Of a stretch of 22,921 bases of DNA, positions 984-5,980 are shown in pieces; the first letter of the stretch is position 1; each line of letters begins with the position of its first letter. Position numbers and translations under genes: made by a program. Below the pieces are notes generated by a model, which did no database searches, was not told the DNA's origin, and saw only the letters and a program-made list of their open reading frames with translations. Origin of the DNA: a virus; the IMG/VR virus record IMGVR_UViG_3300042691_025708, positions 1-22,921 of that record. One strand, written 5' to 3'.

Positions 984-1010
984 GGCCCGTACCTCGCGAG
1001 AGGACGGGCC
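984..1010 (+). repeat. GNRA hairpin repeat, copy A
   Basis: Arms GGCCCGT-A-CCTC (984-995) and GAGG-ACGGGCC (1000-1010) pair as 4+7 bp with one bulged A and a GCGA loop (996-999). Copies B (2099-2125) and C (2379-2405) differ only by a GCAA loop. The AGGAG ribosome site of the next gene starts 9 nt after the hairpin. The stem is followed by TAAGCC, not a U-run, so it is a poor intrinsic terminator. Confidence 0.75.
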
Positions 1011-1029
1011 TAAGCCGTCAGGAGCCCTC

Positions 1030-1176
1030 ATGCGCTACTCTATCCGCCCCCTTGGGGGCACCCAATGGACCACCACCAAGACCCTCGCCGCCGCACGGCG
1101 AGAGGTCAAAGCAGCCGCCCGCGTTGGGCTGGTTTGCGTCATCATAAATACCAAGACCAACGAGGTGATCAAGTGA
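1030..1176 (+). CDS. Small basic protein of unknown function, 48 aa
   Basis: The ATG at 1030 follows AGGAG (1020-1024) at 5 nt. The frame runs to a TGA at 1174-1176 that overlaps the GTG start of the next gene (GTGA), a coupling arrangement that supports both. The product starts MRYSIRPLGGTQWTTTKTL, continues with an Ala/Arg/Lys helix and ends with a hydrophobic strand (VGLVCVIINTKTNEVIK). It reads like a small alpha/beta phage protein. No family is recognised. It lies directly downstream of hairpin copy A, which may control its translation. Confidence 0.65.
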   Translation: MRYSIRPLGGTQWTTTKTLAAARREVKAAARVGLVCVIINTKTNEVIK

Positions 1177-1445
1177 AACCAAGATTCAAGCTGACCCGCG
1201 CCGAGTTTGGCGCCTACCTTGCGGGCGGGCTCGATCCCGACCGCGAGCATGAGATTGACGTGGCTTATTTGAGCAGTGGTCTGACCAAAGCTCAAGAGTC
1301 CCGCATCAATGACCTCCCAACCGGCCACCCCATCGCGCGTCGGACCTCGGCACTTCTCGAGCGCTCCGGCATTGACGCCGAGATCGAGGCGTTCCGGGCT
1401 GAGTGGTGGGCGTGGAGCGCGCCTGTGATGGGAGGTGCGCCATGA
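1173..1445 (+). CDS. Small acidic protein of unknown function, 90 aa
   Basis: I take the GTG at 1173 as start: GAGGTG at 1162-1167 is 5 nt upstream and the GTGA overlap couples it to the 48-aa gene. An open frame reaches 1065 but reads through the upstream gene out of frame and is low-quality sequence. The protein (KPRFKLTRAEFGAYLAGG..., ending WWAWSAPVMGGAP) appears mostly helical, with an acidic patch DPDREHEIDVAYLSS near the middle. No known domain is recognised. Its TGA overlaps the ATG of the regulator gene (ATGA), so it is probably co-translated with it. Confidence 0.68.
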   Translation: MKPRFKLTRAEFGAYLAGGLDPDREHEIDVAYLSSGLTKAQESRINDLPTGHPIARRTSALLERSGIDAEIEAFRAEWWAWSAPVMGGAP

Positions 1446-1756
1446 CCCGCAACCGTGGCGGGCGCCCGCGCTCCGACACCGCCCGCGAGGTTGAGCATTA
1501 CCCGGCGAAAGAGGCCGCCGCGATCGTGCGGTGGATGCTCGCGACCTACCCGACCGACGAAGAGCGCGACATCGCCGGGCTTGCCCGATTCCTCGGGATG
1601 AGCCGGTCGAACCTGAGCGCCATCCTCTCAGGCAAGCGGCCGCGCGCGACCGCCGCGACGGCAGCGCAGCGATGGGCGGACCTCGGGCTGCCGGCGTATC
1701 GGGTCGTGCTGCGGTTCGAGGAGGGCGGGGTAGGGGTGGAGGTAGAGGGACTTTGA
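1442..1756 (+). CDS. Helix-turn-helix DNA-binding regulator, 104 aa
   Basis: The ATG at 1442 has GGAGGT five nt upstream and overlaps the preceding stop (ATGA). Residues about 43-66 (DIAGLARFLGMSRSNLSAI) match a helix-turn-helix: a first helix, the turn GMS and a recognition helix RSNLSAILSG, followed by the basic stretch KRPRA. The N-terminus is also basic (TRNRGGRPR). This is the only obvious transcription regulator in the window. It closes the operon starting at 734, and the two identical 18-bp boxes lie upstream of that operon and 26 nt after this gene's stop. Autoregulation through those boxes is therefore plausible but inferred. The fold resembles XRE/Cro-like proteins; the exact family is uncertain. 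Confidence 0.78.
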   Translation: MTRNRGGRPRSDTAREVEHYPAKEAAAIVRWMLATYPTDEERDIAGLARFLGMSRSNLSAILSGKRPRATAATAAQRWADLGLPAYRVVLRFEEGGVGVEVEGL

Positions 1757-1782
1757 TGCGCTCTTTCTGCGGTGTCTCAAAT

Positions 1783-1800
1783 ATCTTGCGAAAGATGTTG
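1783..1800 (+). repeat. 18-bp palindromic box, copy 2 (putative operator)
   Basis: Exact second copy of ATCTTGCGAAAGATGTTG (compare 644-661), in the gap between the regulator gene (stop 1756) and the 76-aa gene at 1850. As in copy 1, the final TTG starts a -35-like hexamer (TTGCAG 1798-1803). Confidence 0.6.
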
Positions 1801-1826
1801 CAGACGTGGCGGGGATAGAATAATCT
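1798..1826 (+). promoter_or_regulatory. Candidate promoter for the 1850 gene
   Basis: TTGCAG (1798-1803) is followed by an A/T-rich block, ATAGAATAATCTTTATT, at 1815-1831. At 17-nt spacing the -10 would be TAATCT (3 of 6); TAGAAT at 1816-1821 is a better hexamer but its spacing from TTGCAG is only 12. The shared box and position argue for a promoter here, but it is clearly weaker than the one at 659-687 and may need an activator. Confidence 0.42.
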
Positions 1827-1849
1827 TTATTCATCAGAACGGAGCAACA

Positions 1850-2080
1850 ATGAACGTCAAGCAAGCCATCGAAGCCCACCGCATCAGTCTCCAGGCCCGC
1901 GCTGTGTGGCGCAATCAGCTCACCGCCGGTGATACGGTCGGTATCACCGACACCGATGGGCGGTGGGTCATCGAGCGCATCGAAGGCGATACGGTCGAGG
2001 CGCAGAAGGTCAACCCCGCCACCGGCAAGCCTTGGCAGGCATCGCGCCGGTTCAGCCGGATGCGCTGCTACCCGGTGTAG
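1850..2080 (+). CDS. Small protein with predicted beta-barrel segment, 76 aa
   Basis: The ATG at 1850 has GGAG at 1841-1844, five nt upstream, and follows box 2 and its promoter. After a short N-terminal helix (VKQAIEAHRISLQARAVWRN) the sequence alternates like a small SH3/KOW-type beta barrel: GDTVGITDTDGRWVIERI followed by EGDTVEAQKVNPATGKPW. The C-terminus is basic (ASRRFSRMRCYPV), compatible with nucleic-acid binding. I do not recognise a named family. Hairpin copy B follows 18 nt after the stop, repeating the box-gene-hairpin order seen at 644-1010. Confidence 0.7.
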   Translation: MNVKQAIEAHRISLQARAVWRNQLTAGDTVGITDTDGRWVIERIEGDTVEAQKVNPATGKPWQASRRFSRMRCYPV

Positions 2081-2098
2081 CCCGCACCTGAGTCGCTC

Positions 2099-2125
2099 GG
2101 CCCGTACCTCGCAAGAGGACGGGCC
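2099..2125 (+). repeat. GNRA hairpin repeat, copy B
   Basis: Same arms as copy A with a GCAA loop (2111-2114). It is followed by TTTAGAGGT and then AGGAG at 2135-2139, again 9 nt after the stem. Three Us follow the stem, so weak termination or attenuation is possible. Confidence 0.75.
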
Positions 2126-2144
2126 TTTAGAGGTAGGAGCGGCG

Positions 2145-2177
2145 ATGATGCCGCCCACGAACAGGAGAAAACCATGA
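2145..2177 (+). CDS. Ten-codon leader ORF (MMPPTNRRKP)
   Basis: An ATG at 2145 lies five nt after the AGGAG at 2135-2139 that belongs to hairpin cassette B. The ten-codon frame ends with TGA at 2175-2177, overlapping the ATG of the 65-aa gene (ATGA). GCGGC (2139-2143) and GCCGC (2150-2154) can form a small hairpin over its start. It may be a leader peptide that couples translation to the downstream gene, or the remnant of a lost gene. Size alone makes it uncertain. Confidence 0.4.
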   Translation: MMPPTNRRKP

Positions 2178-2371
2178 GCACCAACGTCAACCTCGTGACC
2201 ATCACCACCCGCAAGGCCCGCAAGAGCGACGCCACCACCTGCGACCGCGTCGCCACCATCAAGCCCAAGGGGCGCGAGACTTGGCGGGTCTGCTACAACA
2301 GCAGCCTCGGCCTGGACTTGGGCGGGGTCAAAGCGCTCTACCCGGAAGCGGAGATCCGATTCGCGGAGTGA
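2174..2371 (+). CDS. Small protein of unknown function, 65 aa
   Basis: The ATG at 2174 has AGGAG nearby (2163-2167) inside the leader ORF and overlaps that ORF's stop. The N-terminus is Thr/Lys/Arg-rich (STNVNLVTITTRKARKSD); the rest contains two cysteines (DATTCDR, WRVCYN) and ends GGVKALYPEAEIRFAE. It is soluble and probably alpha/beta. No family is recognised. It is bracketed by hairpin copies B and C, so both its production and its transcript end may be controlled by this repeat. Confidence 0.65.
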   Translation: MSTNVNLVTITTRKARKSDATTCDRVATIKPKGRETWRVCYNSSLGLDLGGVKALYPEAEIRFAE

Positions 2372-2378
2372 ATAGCCC

Positions 2379-2405
2379 GGCCCGTACCTCGCAAGAGGAC
2401 GGGCC
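2379..2405 (+). repeat. GNRA hairpin repeat, copy C
   Basis: Identical in stem and loop to copy B. The downstream 9-nt spacer is TTTGAAGTC, followed by AGGGA (2415-2419), a degenerate Shine-Dalgarno with no ATG at the expected place (CTG instead). The next gene starts 93 nt after the hairpin with a different ribosome site. The cassette looks decayed here. Confidence 0.72.
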
Positions 2406-2498
2406 TTTGAAGTCAGGGACCGCTGGCCCTCTCCGGCGGCGCGGATCTGCTCCCGGCGTAATGGGGGCGGCGTAGGGTCCACGAGACGGACAAGGATC

Positions 2499-5264: not shown

Positions 5265-5980
5265 CAGACCGCCGCCCTCAGCCCGTCCGGCCCACGGATC
5301 GCGGACTCGGCCGAGGCCCACGCGATCAGCCCATCGGCAAGCACCGCGCCGATCCGGTCGAGGCCGTCAAGCGTCCACAGCGCGGCGTGGGCGGGAGAGT
5401 CGATGAACCCGGGCTCAAAGATGACGCCACAGATGCCGGGAATCGGGTAGGTATCGCGGATGCAGACATGGCCGCGCGTCCACCATGACCAGTCCTCTGT
5501 GCCGTCGGGCTTTCGGGTCGGCTTGCGCCCGGCTTGGCGCGCGCGCTCCACGTCAGCGTAGAGCGGGTCGGTGCGCGTCTTGGTGATCTCGGGCAGGATG
5601 GCGATGCCCTTGGTGGACCGGAACGCGCCCATCAGCAAGTTTACCGCCTCGTTCCCGCGCTTTGACTCCGCGAGCGCACGAGCAAGCGCATAGGTGCCGC
5701 CGCCTGCGTTGACGTGGCATTGGACATATATCCCGCGTGTAACGCCGCGTTCTTTGGCATACTTGGCGATGCGCTCGCACCTGTCGCCGTATTTGCCACC
5801 GTCGATCCATTCGACCATGATTCCGGCTGCTTGAAGCAGGCGCATCGCGCGGTGGCCGTAGACGGAGGCGAGGTCGTATTCTACAAGGTCGCGGTTGGTG
5901 GGGTGTGTGGCGCCCGGATCGAAGACGCCGGCCCGTGTGGAGCTGTCACCATGTCCGGGACCGAGGTAGACGCAGATCAT
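5264..5980 (-). CDS. Endolysin, N-acetylmuramoyl-L-alanine amidase (Amidase_3)
   Basis: Zinc amidase that cuts the bond between MurNAc and L-alanine in peptidoglycan. The 238-aa product shows the family signatures in order: LGPGHG (zinc His10), LVEYDLA (zinc Glu34), VQCHVNAGGG (zinc His89) and VIFEPGFIDSPAH (catalytic Glu189). It consists of the catalytic domain alone, with no wall-binding repeats and no signal peptide, so it should depend on a holin; this form is usual for phages of Gram-negative hosts. I chose the ATG at 5980: GGAGG lies four nt upstream and it overlaps the esterase stop (ATGA). The frame extending to 6349 reads through the esterase and is a shadow. Confidence 0.9.
   Translation of the reverse strand: MICVYLGPGHGDSSTRAGVFDPGATHPTNRDLVEYDLASVYGHRAMRLLQAAGIMVEWIDGGKYGDRCERIAKYAKERGVTRGIYVQCHVNAGGGTYALARALAESKRGNEAVNLLMGAFRSTKGIAILPEITKTRTDPLYADVERARQAGRKPTRKPDGTEDWSWWTRGHVCIRDTYPIPGICGVIFEPGFIDSPAHAALWTLDGLDRIGAVLADGLIAWASAESAIRGPDGLRAAV

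Follow-up and report, generated by a model that had tools for sequence, protein, structure and literature searches.

A short RNA hairpin with one bulged base, followed by a 9-nt tail and a run of purines, occurs three times in the window, a 22,921-base IMG/VR virus fragment. Judged by comparison with other phages, it is a conserved RNA element, neither a chance repeat nor one private to this fragment. The minus strand of the window encodes head, portal, and tail genes, and the plus strand carries small unknown genes together with all three cassettes. The hairpins are 27 nt long, lie at 984–1010, 2099–2125, and 2379–2405, and are identical except for the loop, which is GCGA in copy 1 and GCAA in copies 2 and 3. 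A search for the 27-nt pattern with up to three mismatches returns exactly these three matches, against 0 expected. Each copy has a minimum free energy (MFE) fold of GGCCCGT-A(bulge)-CCTC-loop-GAGG-ACGGGCC, that is, a 7-bp outer stem, a bulged A, and a 4-bp inner stem. The stems end at 1010, 2125, and 2405, and the purine runs AGGAG, AGGAG, and AGGGA begin 9 nt later each time, at 1020, 2135, and 2415, behind three different spacers (TAAGCCGTC, TTTAGAGGT, and TTTGAAGTC). The initial annotation had reported the same three copies, stems, bulge, and loops, along with the exact 9-nt distance across differing spacers, and its coordinates agree with ours throughout.

The three cassettes, all on the plus strand, differ in what follows them. 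Only copy 1 shows the plain order of hairpin, Shine–Dalgarno (SD) sequence, ATG, and gene: its spacer and AGGAG (1011–1024) provide the SD of the ORF at 1030. The copy 2 hairpin recurs unchanged in L001, an unrelated contig. Its spacer and AGGAG (2126–2139) run into a second hairpin, GCGGC-GATGAT-GCCGC (2139–2154; MFE and centroid fold), which holds ATGATG in its loop. The loop ATG opens a 10-codon ORF (2145–2177) that overlaps the ATG of a 65-aa ORF at 2174, and the latter has an AGGAG of its own at 2163–2167, its likely SD. Either the AGGAG at 2135 or that at 2163–2167 may be the working ribosome site behind copy 2. The 10-codon frame, read from the letters alone, is a possible leader ORF (MMPPTNRRKP), with its ATGs inside the hairpin loop and its stop overlapping the next gene's start as ATGA. 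Copy 3 lies 7 nt past a stop codon and likewise has a second hairpin behind it, folded as CCGCTGG-CCCTCT-CCGGCGG (2420–2439). Its spacer and AGGGA (2406–2419) are followed by no start codon within 50 nt, the earliest ATG or GTG being 55 nt past the stem, as the initial annotation had described.

The genes around the copies are small. A 76-aa ORF (734–964) ends 19 nt before copy 1 and matches no protein family above threshold. Directly behind copy 1, a 48-aa ORF (1030–1176) overlaps the ORF at 1173–1445 by 4 nt, and this in turn overlaps the ORF at 1442–1756. Another 76-aa ORF (1850–2080) ends 18 nt before copy 2, and the 65-aa ORF (2174–2371) between copies 2 and 3 returned no family in a protein family search. 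Upstream of the gene preceding copy 1, a consensus scan places a sigma-70-like promoter, TTGACG-17-TATAGT (659–687), at 10/12 positions, the number of such matches being near chance level. The –35 of this promoter is overlapped by an operator-like inverted repeat, ATCTTGCGAAAGATGTTG (644–661), which has an exact second copy at 1783–1800, upstream of the gene preceding copy 2 (0.01 expected). The 18-mer has a palindromic core and fronts both small-gene groups, and the pair is probably a shared operator of early promoters. The ORF at 1442–1756 is HTH-like, with a weak Pfam HTH_31 match, and its product could be a repressor acting on this operator.

About six further phage lineages, all of them distant, carry the bulged-A hairpin with its purine tail at +9. 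Apart from the Streptomyces phage Lizz, a lead only, the relatives are uncultured, and the phages are mutually distant: the window has only a tail-region protein in common with contigs G003 and G005, at 23–27% identity. An identical 27-mer occurs in one other viral contig, L001, the rest of which has no detectable DNA similarity to the window. L001 carries six copies, on one strand and between successive genes, each with a tail of TTAGGTGTC or a TTAGGTGGT-like form followed by AGGAGG and a start codon. Its inner stems vary yet pair (GCCC/GGGC, CAC/GTG, GCCT/AGGC), and two copies have an altered but paired outer stem (GGCCCCT/AGGGGCC, CCCCCT/AGGGGG). On the L001 minus strand, at 5640–5600 and 4180–4150, a tail-like GATTAGGTAGT-GGTGGAGGTAG precedes two genes without a hairpin; these sites suggest that the tail may also occur independently.

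Further copies come from several kinds of search. Pattern scans identify L007, L008, L010, L012, and L014. A covariance model of 14 copies, a kind of search that the initial annotation had proposed for the three window copies, recovers three more from L040, a contig absent from the training set (E 2.7e-9 to 2.2e-7), and matches the 210-kb contig G412 at an E of only 0.03. On reading, the G412 copy has the bulged A, GAAA as its loop, an inner stem paired at all 6 bp, and GAAAGG at +9. A tail-only pattern found L117 in G412, and there too a hairpin precedes the tail. A search with protein alone, using the upstream gene product that carries an SSB-like tail (DDDIPF), leads to two new contigs, L121 and L124, both of which have the hairpin at the same place, with a different loop and spacer and GTAGG at +9. 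Across L120–L124 (G002, G005, G003, G415, and G416), the product of the gene before the element has an acidic C-terminal tail of the SSB type (DDELPF, DDDLPF, or DDDIPF). The L014 upstream gene ends likewise, in GIPF, which makes two distinct groups of phages where the element comes after a gene resembling ssb. Two loci, L118 and L119, are not counted, their longer stem partly explaining the tail pattern, and the matches in Streptomyces phages Faust and TunaTartare are chance matches.

Conservation of the stem is supported by covariation. Among 19 aligned copies, 96.6% of cells are paired, two-sided changes occur at 6 of the 11 stem pairs, and none of 500 shuffles does as well; the covariation score is 0.303, compared with 0.093 ± 0.020 for shuffled alignments and at most 0.112 for slid controls. 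The first 14 copies had given 0.288 against 0.088 shuffled. Conservation of the tail length is supported by a scan blind to the tail, whose only demands were the outer arms and CCTTV and which returned 33 matches. AGG stands at +9 in 7 of the 8 bulged-A hairpins and in 0 of the 25 remaining stems that share those arms, with a p of ~2e-6 that counts related phages separately where there are about five independent lineages. A scan of all collected records for G+C-rich hairpins with a 5′ bulged A, unconstrained in sequence, yields 63 hairpins in which the AGG offset peaks at 9 (11 hairpins; next highest 6). Counts are inflated by related contigs. The tail-blind, unconstrained, and ssb-protein scans avoid circularity. 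A chance repeat is ruled out by the exact pattern count, the tail-blind scan, and covariation. The initial annotation had named a lack of conservation or covariation in relatives as grounds for dropping the idea, and both are present. The free-energy and covariation results establish an RNA hairpin rather than a function.

The general plan of the element is a stop codon, usually 15–24 nt, the hairpin, 9 nt, and purines, on the coding strand in all copies. The outer stem is almost fixed as GGCCCGU/ACGGGCC and is followed by the bulged base and a covarying inner stem of 3–6 bp. In 19/19 aligned copies, the bulged A8 and its neighbor U7 do not vary, and the outer stem conserves its letters as well as its pairing. 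The 9-nt tail ends in a pyrimidine and gives way to purines (AGG, GAG, GAA): position +9 is a pyrimidine in 19/20 copies and +10 a purine in 20/20. The GNRA loop noted in the initial annotation is common but not required: loops of UUCG, CUCG, and UCAA and loops of 3 and 6 nt also occur. L121 has U instead of A at position 23, so that the bulge can shift to U7, and in L117 a C·C mismatch stands in place of the bulge. A GNRA loop and a bulged A are usual rather than strict features.

Two arrangements follow the tail. In the direct class (window copy 1, L001, L014, and L040 copies 1 and 3), the SD either consists of these purines or adjoins them, and translation would start 18–23 nt from the stem, where the start codon is found. 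In the two-hairpin class (the ssb clade L120–L124, L010, and G412), a second hairpin intervenes and the SD lies beyond it; window copy 2 probably belongs here. The second hairpin of the ssb clade keeps AGGC/GCCT around a six-base loop that differs in nearly every contig. Window copy 3 and the L040 copy at 1711 have no gene start behind them, the latter standing before a promoter-like repeat. L040 (G007) also contains three near-identical blocks, at approximately 1332–1422, 1750–1850, and 2090–2180, in which TGAAACTAAATCGCTAAAGTGCCGAATTC...GGGTATA/GGGTCTA...ATATGG runs into start codons; these may be read as repeated promoters giving leaderless or nearly leaderless mRNAs. Because the SD can lie beyond a second hairpin and some copies lack a start altogether, the constant feature is the 9 nt from stem to purines and not a distance from stem to ribosome site. 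The fixed spacing seen in the initial annotation therefore stands as a distance to purines, and its identification of those purines with a ribosome site fails for L120–L124, L010, and G412.

We tentatively read the element as acting in cis on the transcript between cistrons, a reading that we hold at somewhat under even odds: it may be a leaky, U-poor terminator, a pause, or a 3′-end hairpin, with the next ribosome-binding site (RBS) docked onto it in some phages. The hairpin would fold in newly made RNA behind the polymerase. At 9 nt, the tail roughly equals the RNA–DNA hybrid in length, and its pyrimidine/purine end resembles the Y-1 G+1 pause consensus, so polymerase could pause at this step and be released part of the time; as an alternative step, the remaining RNA would carry a protective 3′ hairpin. 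With a U-poor tail, most polymerases would continue, and the following small gene would be made at a lower level. The next gene's SD would be supplied by the purine tail or adjoining bases in the window, L001, L014, and L040, the RBS being docked on the element, it is proposed, where space is short. In the other phages, a second hairpin would be inserted, with the SD beyond. Action on the transcript is favored because the SD is not opened by the hairpin in silico, because the U-tract scan fails on a structure with terminator arms, and because the tail ends in a pyrimidine/purine step. The start-less copies at gene ends (window copy 3 and L040 at 1711) count in its favor, as do the terminator-type outer arms and a version of the element in L005, where the same bulged-A hairpin lies 7 nt past a stop and has a U-rich tail, TTTTCTTTT. 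Counted against it are the U-tract terminator scan, which no copy of the element passes, and the stem-to-Y/R distance, which is at the short end of the 10–13 nt of pause hairpins. The SD-like purines at +9 in four lineages are superfluous for a transcription model. The six L001 copies between successive genes without clear promoters also count against it: efficient termination at serial copies would silence the region, and leakiness must therefore be assumed.

The initial annotation had leaned toward control of translation, with the hairpin docked upstream of the ribosome site at a fixed distance that matches the 30S footprint, setting initiation or preventing coupling. An SD-like purine run does begin at +9, or at +11 in two of the six L001 copies, in window copy 1, L001, L014, and two L040 copies, with start codons 18–23 nt past the stem in those copies and every copy on the coding strand. 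However, the +9 purines are not an SD in the ssb clade, L010, or G412, and start-free copies occur. In silico, for 10 of the 11 cases, SD accessibility is no higher with the hairpin than when it is shuffled or deleted, and a scheme in which it opens the RBS or acts as a standby site finds a gain over shuffles only in L001c. We consider the translational proposal rather unlikely. An extended stem that would sequester the SD was also rejected, being seen in L001f and L001d and missing from the other copies. A different role, as the binding site of a phage or host RNA-binding protein (a translational repressor or antiterminator) that recognizes the bulged A and the closing U–A pair, would account for the invariance of A8 and U7 in 19 aligned copies and for the preserved outer-stem sequence, and several copies per genome would make a regulon. 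Yet the bulge can shift to U7 in L121, L117 has a C·C mismatch, loops vary freely, and a search among the phages found no common small RNA-binding protein, leaving this role improbable. We are about equally doubtful of its broader form, an undescribed and widespread phage RNA family recognized in trans by an antiterminator or translational regulator and joining small early genes of unrelated phages into a regulon. An antiterminator-type switch in the ssb clade, pairing ACGGGC-CUUA-GCCCGU against the stem, can be drawn in L120, L122, and L123 and is lost in L121 and L124; it was rejected.

Stabilization or processing of mRNA, in which the hairpin protects the upstream 3′ end or the downstream 5′ end after cleavage in the tail, fits the stop-to-hairpin distance and the very stable stems, which suit an exonuclease barrier, as well as the position between cistrons of one operon; but it leaves the exact 9-nt tail unexplained, no known cleavage motif was recognized, and we judge it a poor prospect. 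The outer stem, GGCCCGTA...TACGGGCC, also occurs in many ordinary viral and bacterial terminators, which raises the idea that the copies are degenerate terminators that happen to precede SD sequences. This is highly improbable: AGG stands at +9 in 0 of 25 ordinary stems with the same arms, and tail length is kept across lineages though spacer letters differ. The view that the unit is more than an accidental repeat is borne out by the covarying stem and the 9-nt distance kept in distant phages, and the copies fail a standard U-tract terminator scan. Whether it is mobile or duplicated, as also suggested, has a mixed answer. The shared tails of the L001 copies and the shared inner stems of the window copies fit duplication together with small-gene modules, but the ssb clade inherits the element in place.

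Short hairpins with one bulged A are familiar from the translational operators of RNA phages such as MS2 and PP7, and that of PP7 has a 4-bp inner stem. The element resembles them in these respects and differs in its occurrence in DNA phages, its SD outside the hairpin, and its unconserved loops. Rfam 15 yields no match above gathering score in the window or five related loci, and none up to an E of 1 in 600–2600. The closest described arrangement is that of the SAS and ESAS of cluster K mycobacteriophages, as defined in print (PMC3203893). ESAS are 17-bp inverted repeats that, according to the authors, do not covary as RNA, with a SigA-like promoter inside (PMC12699233; PMC11373665). Both systems place many repeats per phage genome before small non-structural genes, with a motif that includes an SD shortly before the start codon and an inverted repeat further upstream, and W1 and L014 have the SAS core, AGGAGCCC. 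In contrast to ESAS, the element's stem covaries and holds no promoter, and the 9-nt spacing rule belongs to the element only. The 13-bp SAS, GGGATAGGAGCCC, has no match with up to two mismatches in the window or in L001; at three mismatches it has 8 window matches against 8.4 expected, none at the cassettes. A promoter scan of the cassettes found none. Membership in SAS/ESAS is ruled out by the absent 13-bp SAS, the covarying arms, and the promoter-free cassettes.

Double-hairpin, poly-U-free terminators have been proposed (PMC8355165). With intrinsic terminators, including these, the element shares a G+C-rich hairpin soon after a stop codon, the same outer arms, the placement of some copies at gene ends, and, in several, a second hairpin within 15 nt. 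It differs in its U-poor tail, its fixed +9 purines, and its in-operon placement on the next ribosome site. Under a U-tract criterion of at least 5 T in 8, no cassette is among the terminator-like matches, the first 8 nt of the tail holding 1–4. Published pause rules for RNA polymerase combine a Y-1 G+1 step with a hairpin 10–13 nt upstream (PMC12288461). Hairpin-stabilized pause sites of the his/trp leader type share the near-fixed distance to a pyrimidine–purine step, but the distance in the element is 9–10 nt and G+1 is not kept (A or G), and the element is at most a candidate pause site.

The element looks phage-borne, bacterial genome scans being limited. With strict filters and no positive control, the covariance model gives only four weak matches in 396 Actinomycetota genomes, of which L096 to L098 are read as ordinary terminators and L099 is a terminator-like hairpin, and zero matches in 398 genomes of a second phylum sample. 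No clear cassette turned up in the bacterial genomes sampled. A bacterial or prophage origin was rejected, patterns in bacterial contigs giving only chance coding matches and ordinary terminators. Lizz has one intergenic hairpin (E 1.8e-5) with the tail TGAGGCAGT-AGAAAG, before a promoter; since U-poor hairpins are numerous in this phage, it is treated as no more than a lead. In Lizz (L149), most of the longer gaps between small genes contain very stable hairpins, one or two each, that lack a U-tract, several of them before a TATAGT promoter.

Phage early regions contain many small genes without assigned function, the relative expression of which is set within one transcript. Annotation of the element is possible with the present covariance model, and the element gives a tangible case for testing how cistrons are kept apart in G+C-rich phages that do not use U-tract terminators. 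If the proposed reading is true, such a small hairpin and its tail of set length, reused several times per genome and common to distant phages, would serve as a ready-made part for gene junctions.
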